From Haloarchaeobius amylolyticus (GTDB lineage Archaea; Halobacteriota; Halobacteria; Halobacteriales; Natrialbaceae), in the NCBI RefSeq assembly GCF_026616195.1, contig NZ_JANHDH010000003.1:620001-684000 (forward strand): a stretch of 64,000 nt of DNA, written 5' to 3'. The translations under genes were made by a program, and so were the position numbers. The notes beneath the pieces are model-generated. The model was not told where the DNA came from. It did not search any database and saw nothing but the letters and a program-made list of their open reading frames with translations. This document shows positions 21,192 to 57,814 of this stretch, piece by piece (the stretch's first letter is position 1; the number at the start of each line of letters is the position of its first letter).

Positions 21192-21233
21192 AGTGTCACC
21201 TGACTGGTTCAAAAGAGCTGAAGGAACGGGTGC

Positions 21234-23180: not shown

Positions 23181-23200
23181 AATAAACAATCAACTACCTG
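23181..23200 (-). promoter_or_regulatory. Probable promoter element of family-A copy 1
   Basis: On the plus strand AATAAACAATCAACTACCTG sits 33 bp from the start codon, the same place as the conserved element of the array copies. It is the most divergent version, with no GTTAC box at the expected distance. Confidence 0.45.
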
Positions 23201-23385: not shown

Positions 23386-23772
23386 ATGGAGGAGACGACA
23401 AAGAAATCAGAACTCTGGTATCGGAGCGACGACTGGTGCTCCATCACCGCAGCCAGTAACGTCCTCGGCAAGAAGTGGGTGCCAGCGATCGTGCACCGAC
23501 TGCTGAAGAACGAGGCACTGGGGTTCTCGGCGTTGCGCGAGGAGATATACGGCGTCTCCAGCAAGGTGCTCTCGGAGAACCTGAGCGAGATGGAGCGGCT
23601 CGGGCTCGTCGAGCGCCGGATCATCAGCGACCGCCCCTTCCGGGTGGAGTACCGGCTGACAGAGCGCGGGAAGGACCTGGAAGCGGTCATCGACAGCATG
23701 GCCGAATGGGGGGACAAGCACCTCGTCCCGGAGATGCTCACCGAAGAACAACAGGACATGCGGGAGTTCTGA
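23386..23772 (+). CDS. HxlR-type winged-helix regulator
   Basis: 128 residues. The N-terminal WCSITAASNVLGKKWVPAIV and wing GFSALREEIYGVSSKVLSEN, SEMERLGLVERR and FRVEYRLTERG are diagnostic of HxlR. It has a Cys at the usual sensory position (DWCS), which in some HxlR proteins senses electrophiles or oxidants. Probably autoregulated through the palindrome at its start. Convergent with a second HxlR gene. Confidence 0.9.
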   Translation: MEETTKKSELWYRSDDWCSITAASNVLGKKWVPAIVHRLLKNEALGFSALREEIYGVSSKVLSENLSEMERLGLVERRIISDRPFRVEYRLTERGKDLEAVIDSMAEWGDKHLVPEMLTEEQQDMREF

Positions 23773-23924: not shown

Positions 23925-24290
23925 CTAGACCGAACTCTCCCGTGCGGCCTCGATGACCGGCTGGAGTGCCTCCCCCCGTTCGGTCAACGAGTACTCCACT
24001 CGGAACGGTTTCTCACAGACGACCGCCCGCGAGATGAGTTCTTTCTCCTCGAGGTCGCTCAGGCTCTCCGACAGCACCTTGCTCGAGATTCCCCCGATCT
24101 GTCGCTGCAGTGCACTGAACCCCTGCGGTCCCCCCTCGAGCAGCTCGTCGAGGATGACGAGGTGCCACTTCCGCCCGAGCAACGTCGCGACCGCCGTCAA
24201 CGGGTTCGCGGTCTCGAACGACTCTCGTGCAGCTGCCTCCGCGGCAGCACGGTCCCGGATCGAATTGTAATCGCCAAATGACCTGTTCAT
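23925..24290 (-). CDS. HxlR-type winged-helix regulator, no N-terminal Cys
   Basis: 121 residues with TAVATLLGRKWHLVILDELL, GFSALQRQIGGISSKVLSES, LSDLEEKELISR and FRVEYSLTERGEAL. The Cys before the first helix seen in the convergent paralog is absent here. The minus-strand TATA box is about GGTTATATGG at 24304-24314, so the message is short-leader or leaderless. Target unknown. Confidence 0.9.
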   Translation of the reverse strand: MNRSFGDYNSIRDRAAAEAAARESFETANPLTAVATLLGRKWHLVILDELLEGGPQGFSALQRQIGGISSKVLSESLSDLEEKELISRAVVCEKPFRVEYSLTERGEALQPVIEAARESSV

Positions 24291-24569: not shown

Positions 24570-27500
24570 TCACTCCTCATCGAACAGGGCAGAGAGCACC
24601 TTCTGGAGGGCGATCCTGACGTGCTGGTGAAAGGTCGAGGAGGCGATGTCGAGCCGGTCGGCGACCTCCTCGGCGGTGCTCCGGCGGGGCCAGTCGAAGT
24701 AGCCCTCGACGTAGGCCGTCTGCAGGGTCGCGTGCTGGCGGTCCGTGAGGTCGCCCAGCAGGATGTCCCGGCACTCGTTCGCCGTCCGGACGGGCCGGTC
24801 GCGTTCGAGGACCGAGACGACGTCGGTCTCGGGGAACTCCTCGACCAGCAACTCGACCACGTCGCGCACGTCGTCCTGCGTCGGGGCCTCGACGACGACG
24901 GTCGCCCGGCCGTCGTCGACGGTCTGCTCGCGGACCCGGACCCCGTACTCGACGAGCGACTGCACGAGCGACCCGCCCGACAGCTCGATGGCGATGAGCG
25001 ACTCGTTCACGCGCTCGCTGATGACCTCGACGTCCTCGACGCCGCGGTAGCGCCAGAGTGCGGCGACGACCGTGGCCGCGGGCGCGTCCTCGACCAGGTA
25101 GTAGTACCGCCGTCCGTTCTGGTTGTTGTCGACGATGCCAGCCAGGGTCAGCCGGCAGCCCACCTCCGCGGAGAGATCGACGAGCGCGGCGTTCCGGTCC
25201 GTACTCACGACCTCGACCTCGATGATTGAGTCGCTGAGCAACAGTGCCCGGTCGGTCGTGGCCCGGATGGCGAAGGCGACCAGTTCGCCGAGCACGGAGA
25301 ACGCGCGCGTCTCGAACTCGCCGAAGGCGTCGGCGTGGCTCGCGATGACGACCAGTCCGCCGTAGTTCCGGCCGGCGTAGGTGAGCGGCACCGCGATGGC
25401 CGCCTCGAACCCGCGCTCTGACGCTGCCCGCCGGACCGGTTCGTGCAACTCGACGTCGCCGTCCTGCTTGCGGACGACCTGTGCCTCGCCGGTCTCAATC
25501 GACTCGTCGATGGCGCCGCGTTCGAGTTCGGTCGGGGTGATCTGGGCGATCTCGTCGAGGACGCCCTCGTCCAGCCCGGCCGCGGCCCGGGGGACGATGC
25601 GCCCGCGCCCGAGGCTGTAGTTGCCGATCCACGCGAAGTGGTACAGTTCCGACGAGGCGATGGTCTCGCAGACGGCCTGCTCTATCTCCTCGCGCGATTT
25701 CGAGTGTACGGTCGCGTCGGTAATCTCCTGAACGAGCGAGCTGATACCGAGCAGAATCTCCTGGCGGTCGTGCTGGCGGCGCAACACGTCCTGTTTGCGC
25801 GTGAGGTCGGCCTGCATCTCGCGGAGCTGGCGGTCCCGCCGGGCCCGGGTGAACGCGACGGTCAGGTTCGCGCCGAGCAACTCGGCGAGGTCGACCTCCT
25901 CCCGGCTGAACCCGTGCGGGTCGGTGGTCCCGACGCTCATGACGCCGTGCTCGCCGAGTGGCACGTACATCGCCTCCGAGAGCGGGTACCGGCCGTAGGG
26001 GTCAGCCTCGTTGACGACGGTGATGACGGTCTCGCCGGTCTCGAACGCACGACCCGCAGGCGTCGTCTCCACGTCGTATCGCGGGCGGGGCCCGAGGACC
26101 TCCATCGTGCTCTCGGGCGCCTCGGTGAGCACGAGGTCGTTCGACTCCGGGTCGTGGAGCCGGATGGCGTTCAGGGGCAGGCCGACGACCTGCCCGACGG
26201 CCTCGCACCCGATGGTCGCGATCTCGGTGTCGCTCCGCGCGCTCATCAACCGGTGGGTGATGACGTTCAGGTCGCGCAGGCGCCGGGAGTAGTGCTTCTG
26301 TGCGCTGAGGTCGTGGACGACCGCGACGAGGCCGCCGCCACCGACCGTGCTCAGCGAGAGCGACTGCGGGAAGGTCTCGCCGTCGGCGCGGCGCCCGGTC
26401 GCCTCCCCGCGCCAGGTCCCCTCGCGCTCGACCGCGGGGAGGACCTGCCACGAGAGCTTTCGCCACTCCTCGTCGGTGTAGAACTCCTGCCACTCCGACC
26501 CGACGGTCTCGTCTACGGTCGTGTCGTGGAGCGACGCGAACTCCTCGTTCGCGTACGTCACCCGGTACTCCTCGTCGAGCGTGGCGATGCCTTCGAGGGC
26601 CGCATCCATCGCGGCGACGCGGTCCGTCTGCTCGGTCTCGCGTCGTCGTCGGTCGGTCACGTCCTGGACGGCGACGGCCAGCCGGACGTCTCCCGACCTG
26701 ACAACCGACTTCACGACCACGGTGATGGGGCTCCCGTCGGTCCGCCGGCAGGGCAGGTCCTCGTTCGCCGTCACCTCGCCCGCGAGCAGGCGAGCGGCGG
26801 TACCACGACCCGCTGACCCGTCACCGTCCCCATCCGTGTCGTCACGGAACAACCGCGACGCGTGGGTGCCGACGAGTTCCGCCTTCTCGTCCTGTTCGGC
26901 GCCGAGGAGTCCGACCGCCCGGTCGTTGGCGTCGACGAGTCGGCCGGTCTCCGTGTCGAAGATGACGATGGCGTCGTGGCTCTGGTCGAACAGTTCCCGG
27001 TACAGCGTGTCGGTGGCCCTCCCGGCGGTCGTGTCGTCGGCCGCGTCGGAGGGCCCGGTTTGGTCGGGTTCCGGGACGTGGTCAGGTCGCTCTCCCGGGG
27101 AGCGAACATCGGTGGACCGAGTTTCGCCTGTCTGCCGGTCCGGTGTCTCCGCGGGTGCGAGGACGCGGTCGCTACCTGCATCGGTGTCACCCTCGTCCGC
27201 AGAAACGCCCTCGAAGTCCCGGACGACCTCGACGTAGGTCACCTGCTCTTCGGTCTCGACGCGGTGGACGGAGACCGGCAGGGCGACCTCGTTCCCGTCC
27301 TTGCCGCGATGGCGGACCACCCGCACGTCGTCGTCGTCCGCGAGTTCGGCCAGCAGGTCGAGCACCGACTGGACCTCGGACTCGGGGAACAGGCGTGTCG
27401 AGGACTGCCCGACCAGCGGTTCCGACGTGTAGCCGAGTGTGTCCGCGACCGACGGTGTCGCGCCCACGATGGTTCCCGTCTCGTCGACCTCGACGAGGCC

Positions 27501-27605
27501 GAAGCCGGCCTCGGTGAGCGCCTGCCACGCGGTCGCACTCCCGTACCTATCCGGTAGACCGAGCGATTCCTCCCCCCGGCGGTCGCTGTTGATTTCCTCC
27601 TCCAA
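24570..27605 (-). CDS. PAS/GAF sensor with Bat-type HTH_10 output
   Basis: 1011 residues from TTG 27605 (purine-rich leader; no better ATG before the first PAS domain). There are three PAS domains at about 28-130, 195-315 and 330-430. A GAF domain follows at about 440-595, then a coiled linker and a second GAF at about 625-790. A bacterio-opsin-activator-type domain precedes the C-terminal HTH_10 (LTDRQHATLQTAYVEGYFDW, AEEVADRLDIASSTFHQHV). It has no kinase, so it should act as a one-component transcription factor sensing light, redox or a small ligand. It is transcribed away from, and is the nearest regulator to, the family-A array. Confidence 0.87.
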   Translation of the reverse strand: MEEEINSDRRGEESLGLPDRYGSATAWQALTEAGFGLVEVDETGTIVGATPSVADTLGYTSEPLVGQSSTRLFPESEVQSVLDLLAELADDDDVRVVRHRGKDGNEVALPVSVHRVETEEQVTYVEVVRDFEGVSADEGDTDAGSDRVLAPAETPDRQTGETRSTDVRSPGERPDHVPEPDQTGPSDAADDTTAGRATDTLYRELFDQSHDAIVIFDTETGRLVDANDRAVGLLGAEQDEKAELVGTHASRLFRDDTDGDGDGSAGRGTAARLLAGEVTANEDLPCRRTDGSPITVVVKSVVRSGDVRLAVAVQDVTDRRRRETEQTDRVAAMDAALEGIATLDEEYRVTYANEEFASLHDTTVDETVGSEWQEFYTDEEWRKLSWQVLPAVEREGTWRGEATGRRADGETFPQSLSLSTVGGGGLVAVVHDLSAQKHYSRRLRDLNVITHRLMSARSDTEIATIGCEAVGQVVGLPLNAIRLHDPESNDLVLTEAPESTMEVLGPRPRYDVETTPAGRAFETGETVITVVNEADPYGRYPLSEAMYVPLGEHGVMSVGTTDPHGFSREEVDLAELLGANLTVAFTRARRDRQLREMQADLTRKQDVLRRQHDRQEILLGISSLVQEITDATVHSKSREEIEQAVCETIASSELYHFAWIGNYSLGRGRIVPRAAAGLDEGVLDEIAQITPTELERGAIDESIETGEAQVVRKQDGDVELHEPVRRAASERGFEAAIAVPLTYAGRNYGGLVVIASHADAFGEFETRAFSVLGELVAFAIRATTDRALLLSDSIIEVEVVSTDRNAALVDLSAEVGCRLTLAGIVDNNQNGRRYYYLVEDAPAATVVAALWRYRGVEDVEVISERVNESLIAIELSGGSLVQSLVEYGVRVREQTVDDGRATVVVEAPTQDDVRDVVELLVEEFPETDVVSVLERDRPVRTANECRDILLGDLTDRQHATLQTAYVEGYFDWPRRSTAEEVADRLDIASSTFHQHVRIALQKVLSALFDEE

Positions 27606-27761: not shown

Positions 27762-28541
27762 CTACAGGCGGCGAGCCTCGAAGTCGCCGTCGCTGTGGTA
27801 GCCGAGGCCCTCCCATTCGATCTGGACCTCGATGCCGCGGTACTCGAGCTCGCGGGTGGACTGGTCCTTCGCGCTCCATTCCAGGCGCGCACCGGCGATC
27901 TTGAGGTCGAGTTCGAGCGACTCGGGGTCCCACTCGAAGTCGACGAGTCGGCCGCGGTACTCGACCTCGTTTCCGTCGTCCTCGAACTTCGTCCCGAGGT
28001 CCGAGGCCGCCTCGAACTCCACGTCGTACAGGTGGTCGACCTCGAAGTCGATGTAGTCGCCGTCCGCGACGGCGCTCAACTCGACGCTCTCGCCGCCGTC
28101 TTTGGTCTCGAACTCGATGTAGATGCCGTAGTCGTTGACCTCGAACTCCACGTCGAGGTCGCCGCCGTGGGTCTCGAACATGAGCCCGCCCCACTCGAAC
28201 TCGACGTCCCCGTTGTCGTCGCGCTCGTAGTCGAGCAGGTAGCCGCTCCCGGCAGGCCCGAGTATCGGTTCGTTCGTCTCGTCCGGGGCACCGACGGCCG
28301 GGTCCGCCGGGGCCGCGTCGGGGCCGGGTGATGCGGCCGGTGTCTCGGCACCCGCACTCGGGCCCGGGCTCGCGGCGGGCGATTGCCTGCCCGGGTTGGC
28401 CGCGGGCGAGACCTCGCGCGTGTTCTCGACGTTCGACTGCAGGGCACCGTCTGCCGCGAGTTTCCCGCCGACGCCCATCGAGAGTGCTGCGAGCGCAGTG
28501 CCCGCGTACTTGAGATACTGCCGCTTCGAAGTAGCTGCCAT
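27762..28541 (-). CDS. Acidic beta-repeat protein (family A, copy 2)
   Basis: 259 residues. Tat-like signal TSKRQYLKYAGTALAALSMG (KR, not RR) without AxA-Cys lipobox. A Pro/Ala/Ser-rich linker (about 35-90) leads to the repeat domain starting YLLDYERDDNGDVEFEWGG and continuing with alternating acidic/hydrophobic strands. The tail is SDGDFEARRL, closest to copy 1. First gene on the left of the nine-copy array; its 3' end faces the large Bat-type regulator gene. Function unknown. Confidence 0.8.
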   Translation of the reverse strand: MAATSKRQYLKYAGTALAALSMGVGGKLAADGALQSNVENTREVSPAANPGRQSPAASPGPSAGAETPAASPGPDAAPADPAVGAPDETNEPILGPAGSGYLLDYERDDNGDVEFEWGGLMFETHGGDLDVEFEVNDYGIYIEFETKDGGESVELSAVADGDYIDFEVDHLYDVEFEAASDLGTKFEDDGNEVEYRGRLVDFEWDPESLELDLKIAGARLEWSAKDQSTRELEYRGIEVQIEWEGLGYHSDGDFEARRL

Positions 28542-28576
28542 TGAATTGCCTCCACTGTATACCAGGCGGGTATGCG

Positions 28577-28610
28577 CTATAAGGTATCAAATTACTGTCT
28601 GGTGTGGACG
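28577..28610 (-). promoter_or_regulatory. Promoter of family-A copy 2
   Basis: Plus-strand CTATAAGGTATCAAATTACTG begins 36 bp from the start codon. The box at GTTAC spacing is degenerate (GTAGG). Confidence 0.6.
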
Positions 28611-28709
28611 TAGGCTCGGGTCATATCGTTACCATCCCGGTACGACTACGATTACGTGGAGTGTTCACGGAACAAAGGAATCCGGTTGGGACGGTGGCTG
28701 ACAGCGTCC

Positions 28710-29411
28710 TCAGACGCGCCGGGCCTCGAACTCGCCCTCGCCCGAACCGCCGTGGTACTGGCCGTACGCGGGGTTGTTGTGGGTGCTGGCGTCCCACTCG
28801 AGCAGGACGTTGCGACCCCGGTAGTCGAACTGGTCGCCGTCCCAGTCGAGGTAGACCGCACCGCGGATCTCGAGTTTGTGGTCGTCGGGTTCCCACTCGA
28901 ACTTGATGCGCGAGGCGTGGAACTCGATGTCCCCGTCGTCCTCGAACTTCCGGCCGTCGGCGACGGCCTCGAAGTCCACGTCGTAGTTGCCCCGGACCTC
29001 GAACTCGATGACGTCGCCGTCGACGACGAGCTCCAGGTCGAGGTCGTCGCCGAACTCGTCAGTCTCGAAGTCGATGTAGACGCCCGGCTCGTTCGCCGTG
29101 AACTCGATGTCCTGGTCGTTGTTCTCTGTCTCGAACTCGACGCCGTCCCAGTAGAACTCGATGTCACCGTTGGGGTCGCGCTCGTACTCGAGGGCCGCGC
29201 CGACGGCTGCGCCGAGCAGCGGTTCGCTGGCCGACTCCGGTGTCGCGGCGGGTGCCGCGTCACTGCCGGTTCTGGTCGCGGTCGCCACCGTCGACTCGGG
29301 GGCCACGTTCGGCACCGTCGAGCCCGCGAGCTTCCCGCCCAGTGTGAACGAGGCTGCCGCGAGCGAGGCACCGGCGTACTTCAGGTACTGTCGCTTGGAT
29401 AGGTCTGCCAT
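28710..29411 (-). CDS. Acidic beta-repeat protein (family A, copy 3)
   Basis: 233 residues from ATG 29411, which places LSKRQYLKYAGASLAAASFT at the N-terminus; an in-frame upstream start at 29447 would cross the promoter. The linker is short. The domain begins LEYERDPNGDIEFYWDGVEF. Before the terminal GEFEARRV there is a small Asn/Tyr/Gly insert (HNNPAYGQYHGGSG) that recalls the Tyr/Gly-rich proteins at 42.6-48.3 kb. Confidence 0.78.
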   Translation of the reverse strand: MADLSKRQYLKYAGASLAAASFTLGGKLAGSTVPNVAPESTVATATRTGSDAAPAATPESASEPLLGAAVGAALEYERDPNGDIEFYWDGVEFETENNDQDIEFTANEPGVYIDFETDEFGDDLDLELVVDGDVIEFEVRGNYDVDFEAVADGRKFEDDGDIEFHASRIKFEWEPDDHKLEIRGAVYLDWDGDQFDYRGRNVLLEWDASTHNNPAYGQYHGGSGEGEFEARRV

Positions 29412-29444
29412 AGTCCTCCTGTACGTACAGATGCGCGGTTCGTA

Positions 29445-29481
29445 CATTAAGCATCAAATTACTGAAAACTCGTCTCGTTAC
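29445..29481 (-). promoter_or_regulatory. Promoter of family-A copy 3
   Basis: Plus-strand CATTAAGCATCAAATTACTG is followed after 12 bases by GTTAC (29477-29481) within CGTCTCGTTAC. It lies 34 bp from the start codon. Confidence 0.7.
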
Positions 29482-29564
29482 AGGGGTGAGAGGACCGGGT
29501 GGTTCGATGCCTACCGGAACGGTACGATTCGGTGGAGACCGGGACCCACGTGCCCCAGCACGCG

Positions 29565-30251
29565 TCAGCCCACGTACCGGGCCTCGAAGGTCCCGGGTCT
29601 GTCCGGGGTCCCGCGCCGCCAGTCGATGCGGACCAGCCGGTCCCGGTACTCGAACTCGTCGCCGTCCCAGTCGAGGTGGGCCGGGCCGCGTATCTCCAGG
29701 TCGACCCGGCGCGGGTCCCACTCGACCCGGAGCAGGTCGCCCGCGTACTCGATGGCTCCACGGTCGTTCTCGAAGGAGCGGCTGGGGCCGATGGTCGCCA
29801 CGTCCACGTCGTCGGGGCCGGCGACCTCCAGGTCGAGGCCGACGCCGCCGACCAGCACCGTCAGTTCCAGGACGCTCCCGTCCCCGGCGGCCTCGAGGTC
29901 GAGGGAGAACTCGCCGTCCTCCACGAGGAACTCCACGTCGCGGTCGCCGTCCTCGCTCTCGAACTCGACGCCCGCCCAGCGGAAGTCCACGTCGCCGTTC
30001 TCGGCGCGGTCGAACGCGAGCGCGTCGCCGGGTCGGAGCCCGGCGAGGTCTGTGGGCCTTCTGGGCGGCTCCCGGGCGAACGCCGGGGGATCACCCGGCT
30101 CGGCACCACCATCACCGGCAGTCGGGTCCTGCTCGCTTGTTGTGGGACCGCCAGACCCGTCCAGGGCCACCAGCCCGCCGACACCCAGTGTGAGCAGGGT
30201 CAGCCCTGCCCCGGTGTACTGCAGGTACGCGCGTCTGGAGATGTTTCCCAT
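29565..30251 (-). CDS. Acidic beta-repeat protein (family A, copy 4, divergent, true RR signal)
   Basis: 228 residues from ATG 30251. It is the only family-A copy with a classical Tat motif, ISRRAYLQYTGAGLTLLTLG. The domain start is altered to LAFDRAENGDVDFRWAGVEF and the tail to GTFEARYVG. It has more Arg and Pro and fewer Asp/Glu alternations than its neighbours, so it is the most diverged array member. Same strand and spacing as the others. Confidence 0.75.
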   Translation of the reverse strand: MGNISRRAYLQYTGAGLTLLTLGVGGLVALDGSGGPTTSEQDPTAGDGGAEPGDPPAFAREPPRRPTDLAGLRPGDALAFDRAENGDVDFRWAGVEFESEDGDRDVEFLVEDGEFSLDLEAAGDGSVLELTVLVGGVGLDLEVAGPDDVDVATIGPSRSFENDRGAIEYAGDLLRVEWDPRRVDLEIRGPAHLDWDGDEFEYRDRLVRIDWRRGTPDRPGTFEARYVG

Positions 30252-30692
30252 ACCCTCGACTCCGTGCAGACTACGACGCTCGCCGAACCGATAAGCTATC
30301 AGATAACTGGTTCGTGGGTCGGTTACCGCCCCGAAACGTGCTCGCAAGTGACCGGCTGGAGTCCTGCGTGATTCCGGGGTGGTACACGCCGAACAGGCCC
30401 TCCATCCCGGATATCACTAAAAAGAAAGGGCGGCTTATGCGGCGGCCAGAGTGGCGCGTCAGACGGAGAATTCGACCGCGAGACCGTTCAAAGCCGCGTA
30501 ACCCCTGGTTACTCGGTCACCGGGAGGGAGTTCCCGGGTGGCCACCGGCGGGCACCAGCGACGGCCCGGTGACAACTCCTCGGCTGGGGACGGTACGATG
30601 CGGCCATCTGGCACGCACTGGGGAATCCTGTCGAAAAAACGGTGTCTGCTGTGTCAGCAGTCGATATGGCCTGGTCGAGTGTGGGAGTCGAG
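30252..30692. other. Intergenic region with promoter of copy 4
   Basis: 440 bp without a credible gene. Plus-strand CGATAAGCTATCAGATAACTG (30289-30309) followed by GTTAC at 30322 is the promoter of copy 4. An A-rich stretch (CACTAAAAAGAAAGG) lies near 30416-30430. The remainder, about 30440-30680, shows nothing recognisable and lies downstream of copy 5. Confidence 0.5.
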
Positions 30693-31448
30693 TTAGATGC
30701 GGCGTGCCTCGAACTCGTCGTCGCTGCCGTTGCCCCATTCCCACTCCATCAGGACGTCCTCGCCGGCGTACTCCAGCTCGGTCTCGTCGAAGTCGATCAT
30801 GATACGGCCGTCGGCGTACTCGAAGTCGAGGCCGTTGTCCATCTCGAGCTCGAGCTTGACCGCGCCCTTGATCTCGAGTTCCTGGCTGTCCTCGTCGTAC
30901 TCGAAGTCGAGGAAGCGTCCGCGGTACTCGATGTCGCGGCGGTCGTCCTCGAACTGGTGACCCTGGCCGTCGGACTCGAACTCGACGTCGCCGTCGTCGT
31001 ACTCGAAGGAGATGTACTCGTTGCGGAACGCGATGTCCAGCTCGACGTGGTCGCCGTCGTCGTCCATCTCGAGGTCGACGTAGACTTCACTGTCTTCGAC
31101 GGTCAGCTCGAGGCTCTCACCGTACATGTCGGTCTCGAAGTCGACGCCAACGTCGTCGAGATCGATGTCACCGTTGTCGGTCTCGAACGAGAGGTACGCC
31201 CAGTCGAACTCGATGTTGCCGTCGTCGTCGCGCTCGTAGTCGAGGATGTCACCGACGCCGGCGGGGCCCAGGATGGGCTCCGGGGCTGCTTCGGCGCTCG
31301 GCTTCGCTGCGGGTGCGACCTCGGTGGTCGACTGGACGCTCGACTGGAGCGAACCATCCGCGGCGAGCTTGCCACCGACGCCCAGCGAGAGGGCGGCGAG
31401 GGATGCGCCGGCATACTTCAGGTACTGTCGCTTGGAAAGGTCTGCCAT
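30693..31448 (-). CDS. Acidic beta-repeat protein (family A, copy 5)
   Basis: 251 residues. LSKRQYLKYAGASLAALSLG signal, Ala/Pro linker, then ILDYERDDDGNIEFDWAYLS and strands such as VYVDLEMDDDGDHVELDIAF and ISFEYDDGDVEFESDGQG. The block after EDDRRDIEYRGRFLDFEYDE is shared almost word for word with copies 7 and 10. It ends DDEFEARRI. The GAGG leader is about 8 nt before ATG. Confidence 0.8.
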   Translation of the reverse strand: MADLSKRQYLKYAGASLAALSLGVGGKLAADGSLQSSVQSTTEVAPAAKPSAEAAPEPILGPAGVGDILDYERDDDGNIEFDWAYLSFETDNGDIDLDDVGVDFETDMYGESLELTVEDSEVYVDLEMDDDGDHVELDIAFRNEYISFEYDDGDVEFESDGQGHQFEDDRRDIEYRGRFLDFEYDEDSQELEIKGAVKLELEMDNGLDFEYADGRIMIDFDETELEYAGEDVLMEWEWGNGSDDEFEARRI

Positions 31449-31482
31449 TTCAGTGCCTCGTTCTAACGAAGGTCGGCTTCAG

Positions 31483-31520
31483 GTATTAAGCATCAAATAA
31501 CTGTAAGGTCGTCTCGTTAC
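31483..31520 (-). promoter_or_regulatory. Promoter of family-A copy 5
   Basis: Plus-strand TATTAAGCATCAAATAACTG is followed after 12 bases by GTTAC at 31516-31520, inside GGTCGTCTCGTTAC. It is 35 bp from the start codon and a near-consensus member. Confidence 0.72.
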
Positions 31521-31728
31521 GTCTGCGAGATTCCGCGAAGAAAACGAACGTACCTGGGGTGGAGTCGACCGTGTGGCCGACACGCCGGCTTCACCCGGCC
31601 GTCGGTGTCGGAACCGGTGTCGTGACCGCTCGGGATGGGCCCGCATCGACGCAGTAGTCAGGAGGCAATCGGTGTCCGTGCGTCTGGGCCGGTCCCGGGC
31701 CACGCGCGGGCCGGGTTCTGCTGCGGGC

Positions 31729-32508
31729 TCAGATACGACGTGCCTCGAACTCGTCCTCCGAGTGCGACTGGCCGTAGCCGTGGCTGCCGCCGCGCCACTC
31801 CCACTCGAAGATGACGTCCTCGCCGGCGTACTCGAGTTCGGTCTCGTCGAAGTCGACGACGATGCGGCCGTCTGCGTACTCGAAGTCGAGGCCGTCGTCG
31901 ACCTCGAGTTCGAGCTTGATGGCGCCCTTGATCTCCAGTTCGCCGGAGTCCTCGTCGAACTCGAAGTCGAGGAAGCGTCCGCGGTACTCGATGTCGCGGC
32001 GGTCGTCCTCGAACTGGTAGCCGCCACCGTCGGACTCGAACTCGACGTCGCCGTAGTCGTACTCGAAGGAGATGTACTCGTTGCGGAACGCGATGTCCAG
32101 CTCGAGCTGCTCGCCGTAGTCGTTGAACTCGAGGTCGACGTAGACCTCGCTGTCCTCGACCGTGAACTCGAGGCTCTCCTTGCCGAGTTCGGTCTCGAAG
32201 TCGACGCCGACGTCGTCGAGGTCGACGTCACCGTCGTCGGTCTCGAACGAGAGGTAGACCCAGTCGAACTCGATGTTGCCGTAGTCGTCGCGCTCGTAGT
32301 CGAGGATGTCCCCGACGCCGGCGGGGCCGAGGATGGGCTCGGGTGCCGCCTCGGTGCCGGGCTTGGCCGCGGGCGCGACCTCGGTTGTCTCCTTGACGCT
32401 CGACTGGAGCGAGCCGTCCGCGGCGAGCTTGCCGCCGACGCCCAGCGAGAGGGCGGCGAACGACGCACCCGCGTACTTCAGATACTGACGTTTGCTGATG
32501 TCTGCCAT
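31729..32508 (-). CDS. Acidic beta-repeat protein (family A, copy 6)
   Basis: 259 residues, close to copies 5, 7 and 10. The signal is ISKRQYLKYAGASFAALSLG and the domain starts ILDYERDDYGNIEFDWVYLS. A short insert GGSHGYGQSHS precedes the EDEFEARRI tail. It has strongly alternating strands with one acidic residue facing each hydrophobic one, and no Cys. Confidence 0.8.
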   Translation of the reverse strand: MADISKRQYLKYAGASFAALSLGVGGKLAADGSLQSSVKETTEVAPAAKPGTEAAPEPILGPAGVGDILDYERDDYGNIEFDWVYLSFETDDGDVDLDDVGVDFETELGKESLEFTVEDSEVYVDLEFNDYGEQLELDIAFRNEYISFEYDYGDVEFESDGGGYQFEDDRRDIEYRGRFLDFEFDEDSGELEIKGAIKLELEVDDGLDFEYADGRIVVDFDETELEYAGEDVIFEWEWRGGSHGYGQSHSEDEFEARRI

Positions 32509-32542
32509 TTCAGTGCCTCGTCCGTACAGACGGGTGTATCAG

Positions 32543-32580
32543 ATATTAAGTATAAAATAACTGGCCTGAACTTACGTAAC
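32543..32580 (-). promoter_or_regulatory. Promoter of family-A copy 6
   Basis: Plus-strand ATATTAAGTATAAAATAACTG has a box GTAAC at 32576-32580 at the same 12-base distance. It is 35 bp from the start codon. Confidence 0.68.
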
Positions 32581-32770
32581 TGGGCCGCAAGTACCCGGTA
32601 CTGGACATGTCTGTTTCCTTGCTGTCACGCTCGTCGTAAGTTCAGGCGCGTTCCCGGAGGCGGACGCCGGCGGAGTTCGGGCCGACGCGGTCGCTCGTGG
32701 TCGGGGGAAAGCTCGAAAAATACCGGGTCTCCGCGGTCGCGAAGAGGGAGTGGCTGGTGTGCGGGGGTGT

Positions 32771-33550
32771 TCAGATACGGCGGGCTTCGAACTCGTCCTC
32801 GGAGTAGCGCCGTCTGAGAGCGTTGTTGCCACCGCGGTACTCCCACTCGAACATGACGTCTTCGCCGACGTACTCGAGTTCGGTCTCGTCGAAGTCGACC
32901 GCGATGCGGCCGTCTGCGTACTCGAAGTCGAGGCCGTTGCCGACCTCCAGCTCGAGCTTGATGGCGCCCTTGATCTCGAGTTCCTGGCTGTCCTCGTCGT
33001 ACTCGAAGTCGAGGAAGCGTCCGCGGTACTCGATGTCGCGGCGGTCGTCCTCGAACTTGTGGCCACCACCGTCGGACTCGAACTCGACGTTGCCGTAGTC
33101 GTACTCGAAGGAGATGTACTCGTTGCGGAACGCGATGTCCAGCTCGAGCATGTCGCCGTAGTCGCTGAACTCGAGGTCGACGTAGACCTCGCTGTCCTCG
33201 ACCGTGAACTCCAGGTGCTCCTGGCCGAGTTCGGTCTCGAGGTCGACACCCACGTCGTCGAGGTCGACGTCACCGTCGTCGGTCTCGAACGAGAGGTAGA
33301 CCCAGTCGAACTCGATGTCACCGTCGTCGTTGCGCTCGTAGTCGAGGATGTCACCGACGCGAGCGGTGCGCAGGATGGGCTCCGGCGCTGCCCCGGCTCC
33401 CGGCTTCGCTGCCGGTGCCAGTTCGGTGGTCGACTGGACGCTCGACTGGAGTGTGCCATCCGCGGCGAGCTTGCCACCGACGCCCAGCGAGAGGGCGGCG
33501 AGGGACGCGCCGGCGTACTTCAGATACTGTCGCTTGGAAAGGTCTGCCAT
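32771..33550 (-). CDS. Acidic beta-repeat protein (family A, copy 7)
   Basis: 259 residues. It has the LSKRQYLKYAGASLAALSLG signal and ILDYERNDDGDIEFDWVYLS. An arginine-containing insert GGNNALRRRYS precedes EDEFEARRI. Most of the domain is the same as copies 5 and 6, so recent duplication or gene conversion is likely. The insert before the tail is the most variable part among copies 3, 6 and 7. Confidence 0.8.
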   Translation of the reverse strand: MADLSKRQYLKYAGASLAALSLGVGGKLAADGTLQSSVQSTTELAPAAKPGAGAAPEPILRTARVGDILDYERNDDGDIEFDWVYLSFETDDGDVDLDDVGVDLETELGQEHLEFTVEDSEVYVDLEFSDYGDMLELDIAFRNEYISFEYDYGNVEFESDGGGHKFEDDRRDIEYRGRFLDFEYDEDSQELEIKGAIKLELEVGNGLDFEYADGRIAVDFDETELEYVGEDVMFEWEYRGGNNALRRRYSEDEFEARRI

Positions 33551-33584
33551 TTCAGTGCCTCACACTATGGAAAGCCGGATTCGG

Positions 33585-33622
33585 ATATGAAGTATCAGAT
33601 AACTGTGTGGTCGTCTCGTTAC
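33585..33622 (-). promoter_or_regulatory. Promoter of family-A copy 7
   Basis: Plus-strand ATATGAAGTATCAGATAACTG is followed after 12 bases by GTTAC at 33618-33622, inside GGTCGTCTCGTTAC as in copy 5. It is 35 bp from the start codon. Confidence 0.7.
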
Positions 33623-33791
33623 CGGCCGGAGAGTCCGTCAGGGTGCACCAGAACCCACAGAAGGCATCCGATTCGCGGCCAGTGAGAGGACATGTCGGGG
33701 GCCGTCGCTACTCGTGCTGGGACGACCGGCAAAAGAACTCGTGTGGACCGCACACGTCGTCACGAGGCCGCAAGCGTTCCGGACGGGTCGC

Positions 33792-34598
33792 TCAGATGCG
33801 GCGGGCCTCGAACTCGTCGTCGGTGCCGTAGTCGACGTACTCCCACTCGAACATGACGTCCGTGCCGGCGTACTCCACGTCCAGCGAGCTGACGTCGATG
33901 TCGACGGCGATGCGCCCGTCGACGTAGTCGACGTCGAGCTCACCGCTCTCGGTCCATTCGATGTCGGCGCGGATGGCACCCGATATCTCCAGTTCCCACT
34001 TGTCGCCGCCGTCGGTCTCCTTGAACTCGAACTTGAGGCGGCGGCCCTGGTACTCGATGTCCCGGCTGTCGTCCTCGGCCTCGAACTGGTGACCGCTCCC
34101 GTCGGACTCGAACTCGACGGTCGGCCCGTCCGCGTCGAACTCGAAGGAGACGTACTCGTCGCGGAGCGCGAAGTCGAGCTCCACCGAGTCGATACCGCCG
34201 CTCTCGAGCACTTCGAGGTCGAAGTAGAGTTCGCTGTCCTCGACGAGCATCTCCAGTGCGTCGAAGTCGTCACCGCCGTCGACGGTCGCTTCGATGTCGA
34301 CGCCGACGTCCTCTATCTCGAACGAGCCGTCGCCCTCGGATTCGAACGAGAGGTAGCCCCAGTCGAACTCGACCGCGCCGTCGTCCTTGCGCTCGTAGTC
34401 GAGGATGTCTCCCACGCCCGCGCCGCGGAGGATGGGCGTCGCTTCGGGGTTCGCCCCTGCCGAGGGGGCGAGTCCGGTCGTCTCACCGACTGCAGCCAGC
34501 GGGCCGTCCGCTGCTAGCTTGCCACCGACGCCCAGCGAGAGGGCGGCGAGGGATGCGCCGGCATACTTCATGTATTGTCGCTTCGATAGGTCTGCCAT
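33792..34598 (-). CDS. Acidic beta-repeat protein (family A, copy 8)
   Basis: 268 residues from ATG 34598, matching the LSKRQYMKYAGASLAALSLG start of its neighbours; a longer start at 34646 would run through the promoter. The domain starts ILDYERKDDGAVEFDWGYLS and has small insertions between strands (for example EVLESGGIDSVELDFALRDE), which make it the longest array copy. It ends DDEFEARRI. Confidence 0.78.
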   Translation of the reverse strand: MADLSKRQYMKYAGASLAALSLGVGGKLAADGPLAAVGETTGLAPSAGANPEATPILRGAGVGDILDYERKDDGAVEFDWGYLSFESEGDGSFEIEDVGVDIEATVDGGDDFDALEMLVEDSELYFDLEVLESGGIDSVELDFALRDEYVSFEFDADGPTVEFESDGSGHQFEAEDDSRDIEYQGRRLKFEFKETDGGDKWELEISGAIRADIEWTESGELDVDYVDGRIAVDIDVSSLDVEYAGTDVMFEWEYVDYGTDDEFEARRI

Positions 34599-34631
34599 TT
34601 CAGTGCCTCGCGTGGAGACTAGCCACCTTCG

Positions 34632-34670
34632 GATATCAAACCTCAAATAACTGAGTGGTCGTCTCGTAAC
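34632..34670 (-). promoter_or_regulatory. Promoter of family-A copy 8
   Basis: Plus-strand ATATCAAACCTCAAATAACTG is followed after 12 bases by GTAAC at 34666-34670 within GTCTCGTAAC. It is 34 bp from the start codon. Confidence 0.68.
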
Positions 34671-34702
34671 CGCCCCGGAACGTCCGGTCGACCCGGAACC
34701 GC

Positions 34703-35479
34703 TCAGATACGGCGCGCCTCGAACTCGTCGTCGCCGTTCTCACGCCACTCCCACTCGAAGGCGACACCCTCGCCGCTGTACTCGAGTTCCGTGGTGTCGA
34801 AGTCGATGAAGACGCGGCCGTCTGCGTACTCGAAGTCGAGCCCGTCGTCGACCTCGAGTTCGAGCTTGATGGCGCCCTTGATCTCCAGTTCGCCCTTCGC
34901 CTCGTCGTACTCGAAGTCGAGGTAGCGACCCTTGTACTCGATGTCGCGTCTGTCCTCCTCGTACTGGTAGCCGGTCCCGCTGGATTTGAAGTCCGTGTCG
35001 CCCGCGTCGAACTCGAAGTCGATGTACTCGTCGCGGAACGCGATCTCGATCTCGCAGTAGTCGCCCTCGCGGTCGAACTCCAGGTCGACGAACACCTCGC
35101 TGTCCTCGACGGTCAACTCGACGAAACTGCTGTCGAGGTCGGTCTCGAAGTCGACCCCGATGTCGTCGAGGTCGATGTCGCCGTCGTCGGTCTCGAAGGA
35201 GACGAACTCCCAGTCGAACTCGATGTTCCCGTAGTCGTCGCGCTCGTAGTCGAGTACCTCGCCGATACCGACGGGGCCGACGATGGGTTCGGGGACCGCC
35301 TCGGTGTCGGGGGTGGCCGCGGGGGTGACCTCGCTGGTCTCCACGACGTTCGCGGTCTGTTCGTCCACGCTGGACTGGAACGCGCTCCCGGCCGCGAGTT
35401 TCCCGCCGACACCGAGCGAGATCGCGCCGAGTGACGCCCCAGCGTACTTCAGGTACTGCCGCTTGGAAAGGGCTGCCAT
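34703..35479 (-). CDS. Acidic beta-repeat protein (family A, copy 9)
   Basis: 258 residues. It has the LSKRQYLKYAGASLGAISLG signal and a longer Thr/Val/Ala linker (TANVVETSEVTPAATPDT). The domain starts VLDYERDDYGNIEFDWEFVS. It carries a single Cys in GDYCEIEIAF, unusual for the family. It ends DDEFEARRI. Spacing to copy 8 is only about 100 bp and contains just the copy-8 promoter. Confidence 0.8.
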   Translation of the reverse strand: MAALSKRQYLKYAGASLGAISLGVGGKLAAGSAFQSSVDEQTANVVETSEVTPAATPDTEAVPEPIVGPVGIGEVLDYERDDYGNIEFDWEFVSFETDDGDIDLDDIGVDFETDLDSSFVELTVEDSEVFVDLEFDREGDYCEIEIAFRDEYIDFEFDAGDTDFKSSGTGYQYEEDRRDIEYKGRYLDFEYDEAKGELEIKGAIKLELEVDDGLDFEYADGRVFIDFDTTELEYSGEGVAFEWEWRENGDDEFEARRI

Positions 35480-35512
35480 ATCGATTCCTCAGAGCAACAG
35501 AAGAACCGCAGG

Positions 35513-35551
35513 GTAATCAACTATCAAATTACTGTGACGTACGGTCGTTCC
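35513..35551 (-). promoter_or_regulatory. Promoter of family-A copy 9
   Basis: Plus-strand GTAATCAACTATCAAATTACTG has a one-mismatch box GTTCC at 35547-35551 at the conserved 12-base distance. It is 34 bp from the start codon. Confidence 0.62.
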
Positions 35552-35676
35552 GCCCCCGGAGGTACGTCGCCGAAGGTGGCTTACCTGGCGGTAGACGACG
35601 TCTCGTCGTCGGGTCGGAGTGTCCTGAAAAAACGGCCGAAGGATGCCAGAGTGTCGGAAGGGGTTGCTCGTGGGGT

Positions 35677-36432
35677 CTAGATGCGGCGGGCCTCGAACTC
35701 GTCGTCGCTGCCGTTGCCCCATTCCCACTCCATCAGGACGTCCTCGCCCGCGTACTCGAGCTCCGTGGTGTCGAAGTCGATGGCGATGCGGCCGTCGGCG
35801 TACTCGAAGTCGAGACCGTTGTCGGTCTCCAGTTCGAGCTTGATGGCGCCCTTGATCTCGAGTTCCTGGCTGTCCTCGTCGTACTCGAAGTCGAGGTAGC
35901 GGCCGCGGTACTCGATGTCGCGGCGGTCGTCCTCGAACTGGTAGCCGCCACCGTCGGACTCGAACTCGACGTCGCCGTACTCGTACTCGAAGGAGATGTA
36001 CTCGTTGCGGAACGCGATGTCCAGCTCGAGGTTGCCTCCGTTGTCGTTCATCTCGAGGTCGACGTAGACCTCGCTGTCCTCGACTGTCAGCTCGAGGTGG
36101 TCGCTGTAGACGTCGGTCTCGAAGTCGACGCCGACGTCGTCGAGGTCGACGTCACCGTCGTCGGTCTCGAACGAGAGGTACGCCCAGTCGAACTCGATGT
36201 TCCCGTAGTCGTCGCGCTCGTAGTCGAGGATGTCACCGACGCCGGCCGGGCCGAGGATCGGCTCGGGAGCGGCTTCGGTTCCGGGCTTGGCCGCGGGTGC
36301 GACCTCCGTGGTCTCCTTCACACTGGACTGGAGTGTCCCGTCGGCGGCGAGTTTGCCGCCAACGCCCAGGGAGAGAGCCGCGAGAGATGCACCGGCGTAC
36401 TTCAGATATTGTCGCTTGGAAAGGTCTGCCAT
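35677..36432 (-). CDS. Acidic beta-repeat protein (family A, copy 10)
   Basis: 251 residues, last copy on the right and nearly the same length and layout as copy 5. The signal is LSKRQYLKYAGASLAALSLG and the domain starts ILDYERDDYGNIEFDWAYLS. Its strands and the EDDRRDIEYRGRYLDFEYDE block are shared with copies 5 and 7. It ends GNGSDDEFEARRI. Beyond it the array stops and a winged-helix gene follows. Confidence 0.8.
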   Translation of the reverse strand: MADLSKRQYLKYAGASLAALSLGVGGKLAADGTLQSSVKETTEVAPAAKPGTEAAPEPILGPAGVGDILDYERDDYGNIEFDWAYLSFETDDGDVDLDDVGVDFETDVYSDHLELTVEDSEVYVDLEMNDNGGNLELDIAFRNEYISFEYEYGDVEFESDGGGYQFEDDRRDIEYRGRYLDFEYDEDSQELEIKGAIKLELETDNGLDFEYADGRIAIDFDTTELEYAGEDVLMEWEWGNGSDDEFEARRI

Positions 36433-36465: not shown

Positions 36466-36503
36466 ACATATAGTGAATAATTACTGTCAGTAAATCACGT
36501 TTC
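36466..36503 (-). promoter_or_regulatory. Promoter of family-A copy 10
   Basis: Plus-strand ACATATAGTGAATAATTACTG has a degenerate box GTTTC at 36499-36503 at the conserved distance. It is 34 bp from the start codon. Confidence 0.58.
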
Positions 36504-37727: not shown

Positions 37728-38636
37728 ATGTCAGGATACGAACTGTTGCTGTCCGGGGCCGTACCGCGGTCGACGGAACTGGGAGGCGTCGCGCTCCCCA
37801 CGAGCGGTGACCTCGGCGGCCTCGTGCTCGTCGGCTCGTTCGACCCGGTTCTCATGCATCCCTTCCACACGCTGGCGCTGCTGCTGGCGGTGAGCCGAAT
37901 CTTCGTCCTCATGAAGGCACGGAACCTCTACGCGACCGAGGAGCTGGTCATCGGCTTCTTCCCGTGGGTCGCCGTCGCGGCGGCGCTCTCGGTCTTCGGG
38001 CAGGTCGTCGTGCTGCCCGAGCAGGTCATCCCGTTCCTGTCGTCGCCGCTGGTCTACCTGACCGCGTTCGCCATCGGCGGGCACCTCTGGCTCCACCTGG
38101 CCGCGCCCGACCGACGCTCGTCCCGGGAGGCGGCCGAATCGGTCGCCCTCAGCGGCATCCTCTTCCTGGCGCCCATCGCGGGCGCGACCATCGCCCTGAG
38201 CGGGCGGGAGGTCCACCCGCTCTGGTCGCTCGTGGCCGTCCTGGTCGCCGTGTCGCTGTCCATCCTCATCTGGGCGTACGTCGACCAGTTCCACCCCGGC
38301 GTCACCGGGAACGCCGGCCTCCTCGGGTTCGCGGTCCTGCTCGGCCACCTGCTCGACGCGAGCACGACGCTCATCGGCATCGATATCTTCGGGCTCGCCG
38401 AGCAGACGCCGCTCTCGCGGGACATCATGGAGTTCGCGGCGACCCTGCCGACGGCCGACCTGCTCGGCATGGCGTGGCTGTTCGTGGTCGTGAAGGTCCT
38501 CATCGCGCTCGGCATCGTCTACGTCTTCAGCCACGCCATCACGGACGCCAGACACCGCAGCATCGTCCTCGGTATCGCGGCCACGACCGGGTTCGGCCCG
38601 GCCCTGCACAACCTGTTCCTGTACACGATTCTCTGA
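37728..38636 (+). CDS. DUF63-like multi-pass membrane protein
   Basis: 302 residues from ATG 37728. It has about seven helices and a conserved motif region LLGHLLDASTTLIGIDIFG followed by a loop and a terminal helix with FGPALHNLFLYTIL, as in archaeal DUF63. It is shorter than the DUF63-like protein at 20064-21191. Function unknown. Single gene, bounded by non-coding DNA on both sides. Confidence 0.75.
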   Translation: MSGYELLLSGAVPRSTELGGVALPTSGDLGGLVLVGSFDPVLMHPFHTLALLLAVSRIFVLMKARNLYATEELVIGFFPWVAVAAALSVFGQVVVLPEQVIPFLSSPLVYLTAFAIGGHLWLHLAAPDRRSSREAAESVALSGILFLAPIAGATIALSGREVHPLWSLVAVLVAVSLSILIWAYVDQFHPGVTGNAGLLGFAVLLGHLLDASTTLIGIDIFGLAEQTPLSRDIMEFAATLPTADLLGMAWLFVVVKVLIALGIVYVFSHAITDARHRSIVLGIAATTGFGPALHNLFLYTIL

Positions 38637-39213: not shown

Positions 39214-40173
39214 CTACTGCGTGAAGCTACTGTACTCGGGGGTGGCGTTCAGGAGTTCCTTGTACCGCGTCCGGATGGTCACGGTGCTCATGTTCGCCAC
39301 CTCGGAGACGTCGCGCTGGGTGATGTCCTCCGCGGTCACCACGGACGCGGCGTAGACCGCCGCGGCCGCGAGGGTCACGGGGCTCTTGCCGCTGTCGATG
39401 CCCTTCTGCTGGGCGTTCTCGAGCAGCTGGTACGCGATGCGCTCGCCCTCCGAGGAGAGGCCGAGCGAGGAGGCGTACCGGCGGACGTAGTCCTTCGGGT
39501 CGGCCAGCTGGACGACGAGGTTCAGCTCGCGGACGAGCGTGCGATACGCCCGCCGGAAGTCGCTGTCCTGGATGCGGCTGACCTCGATGACCTCGTCGAT
39601 GGTCCGCGGGATGCCCACCTGTCTGGCGGCGATGTAGAGCGACGCCGTCGCGATGGACTCGATGCTGCGCCCCGGGAGGAGGTCCTCCTTCAGGGCGCGC
39701 CGATAGATGACCGAGGCGGTCTCGCGCACGTCGGTCGGGAGCCCGAGTGCGCTGGCCATGCGGTCGATCTCGCCGAGTGCCTGGCGCAGGTTGCGCTTCT
39801 TGGAGTTCTCCATGGTGAAGCGCTGGTTCCACACGCGGAGCCGCTCCATCTGGCGGCGCTGGTTGTGGCTCAGCGGGGCGCCGCTGCTGTCTGCGTTCTT
39901 CCAGTCGATGGTGGTCGACAACCCCTTGTCGTGCCAGAGGACCGAGACGGGCGCGCCGACGCGGCTCCGCTGGTCCGCCTCGTCCGAGGAGAACGCCTGC
40001 CACTCCGGGCCGCGGTCGATCTCGTCCTCGGCGACGACCAGTCCACAGTCCATACAGACCGTCTCACCGTGTGTCTCGTCGTTGCGAACGCTGCCACCGC
40101 ACTCCGGACACTGGAGCGGTGCGTTCTCCCGACCCGACGGGACGTCGCTTCCGATGCTGTCCTTTCGTGTCAT
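39214..40173 (-). CDS. tfb: Transcription initiation factor IIB (TFB)
   Basis: 319 residues from ATG 40173. An N-terminal zinc ribbon (C22, C25, C40, C43: CPECGG and CMDCGL) is followed by the B-finger/linker (EWQAFSSDEADQRSRVGAP). Two cyclin repeats follow (IDRMASALGLPTDVRETASV and KDYVRRYASSLGLSSEGERI), each with a helix-turn-helix-like end such as DITQRDVSEVANMSTVTIRT. It recruits RNA polymerase to TATA/BRE promoters. Haloarchaea encode many TFBs with different promoter preferences. This one lies between the two surface-protein arrays, so it is a candidate for their shared promoters (inference). Confidence 0.96.
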   Translation of the reverse strand: MTRKDSIGSDVPSGRENAPLQCPECGGSVRNDETHGETVCMDCGLVVAEDEIDRGPEWQAFSSDEADQRSRVGAPVSVLWHDKGLSTTIDWKNADSSGAPLSHNQRRQMERLRVWNQRFTMENSKKRNLRQALGEIDRMASALGLPTDVRETASVIYRRALKEDLLPGRSIESIATASLYIAARQVGIPRTIDEVIEVSRIQDSDFRRAYRTLVRELNLVVQLADPKDYVRRYASSLGLSSEGERIAYQLLENAQQKGIDSGKSPVTLAAAAVYAASVVTAEDITQRDVSEVANMSTVTIRTRYKELLNATPEYSSFTQ

Positions 40174-40585
40174 AGTATATCTGCCTTGAATCGGGATGGT
40201 CGACACTCCGGACCGGAGCATCTCCCCCCTCGCGCGGTGGCGCGTTCGCGTCCCCGGCCGACCACACCCGTCGCTGCTGCGATGTCGAGTGGCGACCGGG
40301 CGGACGTCTGAACGGCCTCTCCGCCCTTGCGACCATTTGGCTACAGAGCGTCTTAACGTTCTTCTAACGTGTCGGAAGGTACCCGACCTCGAGTTCGTCA
40401 CGTGGAGGAAGCGGGATAACGCCGGTTCGCCGGGATGTCCCCGGTTCGTGGTGATATGTTTCACCCGGGTAAGGGAGACGGAGGTGCCTCGCTAACACTG
40501 TTGTAAGCTAGCAGTTATCATGGTCTGCACCGTAGTATGTGTAACGCGCGAAGCGACACGCGCTCGGCGTTACACAGGGGGGACC
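40174..40585. other. Divergent promoter region of TFB and small DUF7331-like gene
   Basis: No gene seen. TTAACGTTCTTCTAACG around 40352-40370 may be the TFB core promoter. AAGCTAGCAGTTATC near 40505-40520 and GTTACAC near 40569 lie ahead of the small gene. Confidence 0.4.
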
Positions 40586-45047: not shown

Positions 45048-45106
45048 GCTTTCTCCCCTCGGTCGAGGGTAGGCTACATCGAAAAATAACGCCACGGTAA
45101 TACCTG

Positions 45107-45157
45107 GGTTACCGGACTACCACCGAGTTGCACGACGACACGGAGTTACCAGTCGGG
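45107..45157 (-). promoter_or_regulatory. Promoter box of family-B copy 3
   Basis: Plus-strand GGTAA-N8-TTACC overlaps GTTAC-CGGACT-ACCACCGAGTTG, followed by GCACGACGACACGG and TTACCAG. Confidence 0.68.
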
Positions 45158-45214
45158 AACGTCATCACGCCGACCCGTCCCCGTGTCGCCTCCGGCGACC
45201 TCGACCAGCGACGC

Positions 45215-57756: not shown

Positions 57757-57814
57757 GCATCCCTGCTAGCGCCTTCCCACCCGAGAACCTCCGCCTTGCC
57801 TGTGCGCGCCCTTT

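Follow-up and report, generated by a model that had tools for sequence, protein, structure and literature searches.

The 64,000-nucleotide stretch of the Haloarchaeobius amylolyticus genome analyzed here (contig NZ_JANHDH010000003.1, positions 620,001 to 684,000; below, the window) carries ten related minus-strand genes, which we read, with a probability of about one half, as a co-regulated set of exported acidic β subunits that build or decorate an extracellular structure. This reading is based on a private promoter-like block, a conserved K-R export signal, a nearby TatA gene, purifying selection, recurring regulator, TFB (TFIIB-type) and DUF63 genes, and amphipathic strands. In the scheme that we propose, the ten genes would encode non-identical subunits of an exported, highly acidic β-meander protein, with a copy of the same private promoter driving the transcription of each gene. 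Control would probably lie with the HxlR pair, the PAS/GAF/BAT/HTH_10 regulator or the TFB encoded at the locus, all of them putative pairings. The subunits would be exported in a folded state by the twin-arginine translocation (Tat) pathway through a conserved K-R variant signal, the linked TatA possibly helping. The mature protein would comprise a flexible linker and a β domain, hydrophobic inside and lined with Asp/Glu outside, and would be incorporated, outside the membrane, into a surface or extracellular structure as one of its building blocks, both its location and its assembly being predicted. The array is a gene family undescribed in the libraries and literature searched, and its organization extends beyond what had been seen in an initial annotation of the window.

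A family of ten acidic β proteins

The nine tandem open reading frames (ORFs) at 27762–36432 and the tenth at 22243–23148, which the initial annotation had assigned to one family, were confirmed in place and align end to end. Copies are numbered from the gene at 27762 (copy 1) up to copy 9, and the gene at 22243 is copy 10. The starts of copies 2, 3 and 7 were shifted downstream to an aligned Met (MADLSKR or MGNISRR). All assignments rest on the alignment, with counterparts in a sister species as indicated:

22243–23148, minus strand: copy 10, short domain, long Gly/Asp linker (AlphaFold2 domain model)
27762–28541, minus strand: copy 1, short domain (sister-species ortholog, dN/dS 0.05)
28710–29411, minus strand: copy 2, short domain, start corrected (sister-species counterpart)
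29565–30251, minus strand: copy 3, short domain, the sole window copy with a twin-arginine (RR) signal, start corrected (sister-species counterpart)
30693–31448, minus strand: copy 4, long domain (sister-species counterpart)
31729–32508, minus strand: copy 5, long domain (sister-species counterpart)
32771–33550, minus strand: copy 6, long domain (sister-species counterpart)
33792–34598, minus strand: copy 7, long domain, start corrected (sister-species counterpart)
34703–35479, minus strand: copy 8, long domain (sister-species counterpart)
35677–36432, minus strand: copy 9, long domain (AlphaFold2 domain model)

The ten ORFs display the haloarchaeal codon signature (third-position GC content of 0.83–0.93) and isoelectric points (pI) of 4.05–4.4. 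Each consists of an N-terminal export-type segment, a linker, a domain and a C-terminal FEAR tail; the linker varies greatly in length and contains long Gly/Asp repeats in copy 10. Alignment of 15 domain sequences revealed that G1, L4, R8, F16, F23, W171 and the F-E-A-R tail are invariant. The proposed domain opening, YERD-x-x-G-x-IEF, is the majority form (G..L.YERD..G.IEF in most copies), variants being FDRAENGDVDF in copy 3 and YERKDDGAVEF in copy 7. The domains fall into a short form of 149–163 residues (copies 1, 2, 3 and 10) and a long form of 186–206 residues (copies 4–9), the latter distinguished by two insertions, each adding about two strands, which invariably co-occur (28 of 28 sequences). 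The copies originally singled out as very close do share 82–89% domain identity; those labelled 5, 6, 7 and 10 are copies 4, 5, 6 and 9 here. An eleventh, distant member is located elsewhere in the window genome (G000:C2:515682-516227). It belongs to a second family branch (also L046:4018-4689 and L112), characterized by RR signals and a domain Cys. The members of this branch are singletons outside the tandem runs, situated either at other genomic sites or on the border of the Halobium array.

None of the window members reached the cut-off in Pfam or NCBIfam, and the family profile had no match among PDB sequences. A defence or phage origin was rejected, as no match was found in PADLOC (two copies scanned) or PHROG (five copies scanned). 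Our literature search retrieved no paper on this family, on DUF4097 in haloarchaea, or on HxlR in connection with Haloferax and Tat signals. The view that this is an undescribed exported acidic β family is therefore supported: library, PDB and fold searches gave no convincing match, and no confident match to a characterized family emerged by sequence or by fold.

Confident AlphaFold2 models of copy 9 (long form) and copy 10 (short form) were obtained from alignments of 15 relatives. The long-form domain yielded a predicted local distance difference test (pLDDT) score of 91.5 and a predicted template modelling (pTM) score of 0.88, and the short-form domain values of 94.6 and 0.88; both are all-β, with ∼20 and ∼15 strands, respectively. 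Every member shows a period-two alternation in hydrophobicity (lag-2 z of 3.5–6.1). The inner face is occupied by L, F, V, Y, I, W or M at 46 of 56 positions and the outer face by D or E at 45 of 63, counts that are partly circular because the inner face was taken as the more hydrophobic phase of each strand; the autocorrelation is not circular. Foldseek returned no hit with E < 1e-3 in PDB (both models) or BFVD (short form). The best aligned structural neighbours were the TCP domains of CPAP/SAS-4 and OspA, mostly over about half of the model and all with Z < 8, a likeness that may reflect merely a common arrangement.

Each half of the models resembles a single-layer meander sheet. Because of this resemblance, and because the paired insertions fit two facing sheets, a sandwich is favoured for the modelled domain over the solenoid that had been offered as the other option; the β-solenoid is disfavoured by the models' meander-sheet neighbours. 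Co-occurring insertions are expected for two facing sheets, but few evolutionary events may also explain them.

The acidic outer faces and the pI of ∼4.05–4.4 would also suit a role as soluble polyanions, secreted to scavenge or buffer cations (Mg, Ca, metals) or basic peptides such as halocins in the vicinity of the cell, with no ordered structure being formed. Such a role accords with the lack of a membrane anchor and with the exported Arg-rich proteins encoded nearby. We nevertheless regard it as unlikely: acidity is general in haloarchaeal proteins, no fixed acidic site motif is evident, and bulk buffering needs no separate upkeep of ten distinct copies.

Another reading, to which we give a low probability, would make the family a haloarchaeal branch of DUF4097/Toastrack that senses or buffers envelope stress, like bacterial LiaG/LiaF-type proteins. 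Both groups have β-rich repeats, regulators adjoin the array, two relatives marginally exceed the DUF4097 (PF13349) gathering cut-off of 22.9 bits (24.7 and 23.1 bits, that is, by 1.8 and 0.2), and the Halomarina relative is annotated as DUF4097. However, these matches span 34–66 of 247 profile positions, and no window copy reaches the cut-off. In Pfam scans of the immediate neighbours, no PspC or LiaI-LiaF membrane domains were found, but HxlR, BAT/HTH_10, DUF63, TFB and RdfA instead. Toastrack is a right-handed β-helix, described as intracellular and tied to or fused with PspC/LiaF membrane domains (PMC11237479), whereas the family combines export signals with meander-sheet-like model halves. 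The Toastrack structures 4QRK and 4OPW are missing from the neighbour lists of the models, which consist of meander sheets, although this absence is no proof. We do not claim membership of the family in DUF4097/Toastrack.

A private promoter-like block and an unusual export signal

In all ten window copies, the block CAGTWATTTGATNNTTNAT or a close variant is positioned 33–39 nucleotides upstream of the start codon. With up to two mismatches allowed, CAGTWATTTGATNNTTNAT has nine matches in the window, all at family members, and none in 100 shuffles (0 expected). With up to one mismatch, the whole 4.6-Mb genome contains seven family sites and one other site. The blocks, all on the minus strand, are:

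23182–23200, minus strand: block of copy 10, 2 mismatches to CAGTWATTTGATNNTTNAT
28579–28597, minus strand: block of copy 1, CAGTWATTTGATNNTTNAT match
29446–29464, minus strand: block of copy 2, exact CAGTWATTTGATNNTTNAT match
30291–30309, minus strand: block of copy 3, CAGTWATTTGATNNTTNAT match
31485–31503, minus strand: block of copy 4, exact CAGTWATTTGATNNTTNAT match
32545–32563, minus strand: block of copy 5, CAGTWATTTGATNNTTNAT match
33587–33605, minus strand: block of copy 6, CAGTWATTTGATNNTTNAT match
34635–34653, minus strand: block of copy 7, CAGTWATTTGATNNTTNAT match
35516–35534, minus strand: block of copy 8, exact CAGTWATTTGATNNTTNAT match
36468–36486, minus strand: variant block CAGTAATTATTCACTATAT of copy 9, 35 nucleotides before the ATG, near-identical in the sister species

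The block is retained in the sister species, occurs in a related form (CGGTTATNTGAY...) in Halobium and is weaker in Halomarina. Its position could suit a B recognition element and TATA box.

The N-terminal signal reads S/T-K-R-Q/D-Y-L/M-K (typically S-K-R-Q-Y-L-K) in nine of the ten copies, copy 3 alone carrying RR. The Tat-like N-terminus claimed initially thus holds for the layout of the segment, whereas K-R replaces the twin Arg of canonical Tat substrates in the other nine. Among the window paralogs, mean identity is 77% in the signal and 55% in the domain. Third positions at shared signal residues match in 50% of cases only, so the constraint acts on the protein and gene conversion was rejected as the source of signal conservation; the corresponding agreement in the domain, 80%, is a value raised by two-fold codons. 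When S-K-R-x-[YF]-L-K was searched as DNA in four genomes, all 15 matches fell inside arrays. S-R-R-x-[YF]-L is present elsewhere in each genome, as a looser pattern whose counts are not directly comparable with those of the K-R pattern. This excess of constraint over that on the cargo suggests that the signal has either a specific partner or a permanent function as an anchor. Export of the family proteins is well supported by their sequences and much likelier than assembly; Tat is the presumed route.

No lipobox Cys follows the hydrophobic core in the ten window copies. Cys is absent from eight of the ten ORFs; of the two others, copy 2 has its Cys ahead of the true start and copy 8 has one within the domain. 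The C-termini, which finish two or three residues after FEAR and contain no transmembrane segment, do not correspond to the PGF-CTERM signal of archaeosortase substrates (motif, transmembrane segment and basic tail). One alternative would have the K-R signal remain uncleaved as a membrane anchor, tethering the domains outside the membrane as a brush beneath the surface layer. The hydrophobic segment is nearly unchanged across copies, which is unusual for a signal merely cut off, no other anchor is present, and several copies lack a clear AxA-type cleavage site. Several relatives, however, have plausible AxA sites (GTVSAAAPAP, GTAAAQRA), and we judge such a brush rather improbable.

A TatA paralog is encoded on the same replicon:

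53540–53905, plus strand: TatA paralog (TIGR01411, 55.7 bits versus a cut-off of 53.9)

In the window, ∼17 kb separate it from copy 9. The other three array genomes likewise have a TatA paralog near the array, ∼22 kb away in the sister species, ∼14 kb away in Halobium and ∼5 kb away on the Halomarina plasmid. TatC genes lie ∼5 kb from the Halobium array and also on the Halomarina plasmid. Given 3–4 TatA genes per 4-Mb genome, such linkage at three independent loci is unlikely to have arisen by chance, the estimate of order 1e-4 being rough and post hoc.

Distribution, age and gene neighbourhood of the array

The contig that contains the window is 753,550 bases long, in a genome of 4.6 Mb, and the array of the sister species on a 674,682-base contig beside one of 3.49 Mb; the array therefore likely sits on a secondary replicon. 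In a class-level draw, 8 of 391 genomes contained a match at E ≤ 1e-6; three of the weaker matches are, or resemble, long acidic repeat proteins and are possibly compositional. Family-level (125 genomes) and phylum-level (295 genomes) draws added no further genome at their cut-offs, and a profile search of genome contigs returned Halobium salinum only. Arrays or several copies are present in the window genome, one of five congeners, Halobium salinum and Halomarina sp. BCD28 (three copies on a 94.5-kb plasmid), and Haloferax mediterranei has a single distant member on pHME505. Such scattered occurrence suggests that the family has spread horizontally on secondary replicons.

The sister species, which belongs to the same genus, contains counterparts of all ten copies in the same order, so the array is older than the species split. 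In the domain tree, copies 1, 2, 3, 4, 6, 7, 8 and 10 pair by position, and copies 5 and 9 group loosely. The recent amplification proposed in the initial annotation was rejected on the grounds of this positional orthology, most counterparts being paired by both tree and identity. The ratio of nonsynonymous to synonymous substitution (dN/dS) between the domains of counterparts ranges from 0.05 to 0.40. These data indicate that the copies are held apart by purifying selection, which fits separate subunit tasks better than dosage or variation.

A variable surface coat, with copies exchanged or amplified as decoys or for virus escape, would be in keeping with tandem paralogs on a secondary replicon and with the patchy distribution. 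Yet the copies match by position between species, dN/dS is low across the whole domain and the silent sites of the signal region have diverged, which argues against shuffling and whole-domain diversifying selection and makes this the least probable of the explanations considered.

The genes surrounding the array are:

20064–21212, minus strand: DUF63-like membrane protein, just below cut-off (PF01889, 24.1 bits versus 25)
21234–22274, minus strand: acidic coiled-coil protein (positional counterpart beside a family member in the sister species and Halobium)
23386–23772, plus strand: HxlR-type regulator (PF01638, E 2.5e-22; homologs beside the Halobium and Halomarina arrays)
23925–24290, minus strand: second HxlR-type regulator, on the opposite strand (PF01638, E 4.7e-23)
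24570–27605, minus strand: PAS/GAF/BAT/HTH_10 (bacterio-opsin-activator-like) regulator of 1011 residues (BAT PF15915, 5.7e-38; HTH_10, 1.4e-19)
37728–38636, plus strand: DUF63 membrane protein bordering the array (PF01889, 3.1e-17; also in Halobium)
39214–40464, minus strand: TFB paralog (PF00382, 3.3e-39; homologs of 69% identity in Halobium and 61% in Halomarina)
40949–41578, minus strand: RdfA (rod-determining factor) family protein (PF21811, 1.7e-70; also in the sister species and on the Halomarina plasmid)
42577–45655, minus strand: Tat-type exported proteins with Arg/Tyr/Gly-rich stretches, at 42577–43131, 43668–44255 and 45215–45655 (distant Halobium relative)

The order in the window is subtilase, DUF63-like protein, coiled-coil protein, copy 10, HxlR (plus strand), HxlR (minus strand), BAT/HTH_10 regulator and copies 1–9, followed by DUF63, TFB, RdfA, DUF192, the exported Arg-rich proteins, an Hvo_1808-family surface protein and TatA. 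That of the sister species agrees over the compared part, with an SMC-like gene between RdfA and TFB. Most of the gene order is kept in Halobium, including a homolog of the PAS/GAF/BAT/HTH_10 regulator at the equivalent place, and Halomarina has much of the set in a different order, with RdfA and SMC-like genes. The window RdfA gene is without its usual adjoining SMC-like partner, which the sister species retains (L043:6512-8539). An N-terminal extension of the listed TFB ORF is probably non-coding.

The three Arg/Tyr/Gly-rich exported proteins carry RR signals and have small look-alikes in Halobium and Halomarina; the 43668 protein terminates in a small YERDDYTGDVEF... domain that contains two paired Cys residues. 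These proteins could pair electrostatically with the acidic family. Further out, the exported protein with C-terminal repeats at 15724–18171, which we take to be a subtilase, has homologs near family members in Halobium and in a further genome (G368). Two similar small regulators near it (13974–14267 and 15063–15374) are presumably PadR-like, and a run of small acidic genes at 57166–61513 resembles gas vesicle genes (GvpF/L-like at 58042–58887).

Interpretation and comparison with known systems

Several points weigh against a co-regulated set of exported subunits. Each promoter may have been duplicated along with its gene, and the packing of the sheets and any surface for self-assembly are predicted. 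The canonical Tat motif is RR, and Haloferax volcanii Tat substrates are affected when twin Lys takes its place, in a study whose tests did not cover K-R (PMC2945643). The lack of both a C-terminal anchor and a lipobox Cys leaves surface retention unexplained. Finally, the array-linked TatA proteins do not form one clade in the TatA tree, so that a single dedicated TatA inherited with the module was rejected and the linkage probably arose more than once.

On balance, the array has the appearance of a dedicated cell-surface-building module, possibly a mobile one. A fuller version, namely a dedicated, horizontally spread haloarchaeal surface-structure system with heteromeric acidic β-meander subunits of a fold so far absent from the PDB, a private core promoter read by the locus TFB, and a K-R class of Tat signal with a linked Tat component, is put forward as a tentative conjecture. 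The co-regulated set would provide a defined module for accessory envelope building in haloarchaea, in which a single family combines a shared promoter-like block and a shared type of signal with candidate regulators encoded at the locus. The slower evolution of the K-R signal relative to the cargo calls into question the RR rule for haloarchaeal Tat substrates, and predictors that require RR would overlook proteins of this kind. The presence of the RdfA cell-shape gene on the island adds a positional link to the rod/disk switch.

RdfA and Sph3 are required for rods in Haloferax volcanii (PMC10869688). As at that locus, an RdfA family gene lies next to the array, and in the sister species and Halomarina it has an SMC-like gene beside it; by its description the Haloferax volcanii locus is a different gene set (PMC10869688), and the link to cell shape here is one of gene proximity only. 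On pHME505 of Haloferax mediterranei, acidic repeat proteins (E6P09_RS15765/15770 and others) are likewise exported, alternate between hydrophobic and acidic residues, and are encoded beside HxlR-like genes and the single family member. They differ in their length of ∼460–540 residues, Sec-like signals and absence of a FEAR tail, and their likeness to the family may be compositional. Clusters of exported proteins that consist nearly entirely of alternating hydrophobic/acidic repeats, near HxlR-like genes, were observed on this plasmid (L054, 5714–8672 and 16048–19173) and at a second locus (L050, 1908–8963).

Like haloarchaeal Tat substrates, the family has a charged n-region and a weakly hydrophobic core, and folded export is expected; unlike them, it has K-R for R-R in nine of ten copies, a signal conserved above its cargo and no lipobox. 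OspA is an exported bacterial surface protein with a single-layer meander β-sheet (Z up to 6.5 over 90 residues), but it is a lipoprotein with end-capping domains, has no sequence similarity to the family and matches half of the model only. The closest structural neighbour is the CPAP/SAS-4 TCP domain (G-box), with ∼20 consecutive antiparallel strands (Z of 7.8 over 84 residues, 4.2 Å), to which only half of the family model aligns, at 8% identity. The TCP domain forms one open sheet that lacks a hydrophobic core (PMC3776556) and is exposed on both faces, whereas the strands of the family have one hydrophobic face.

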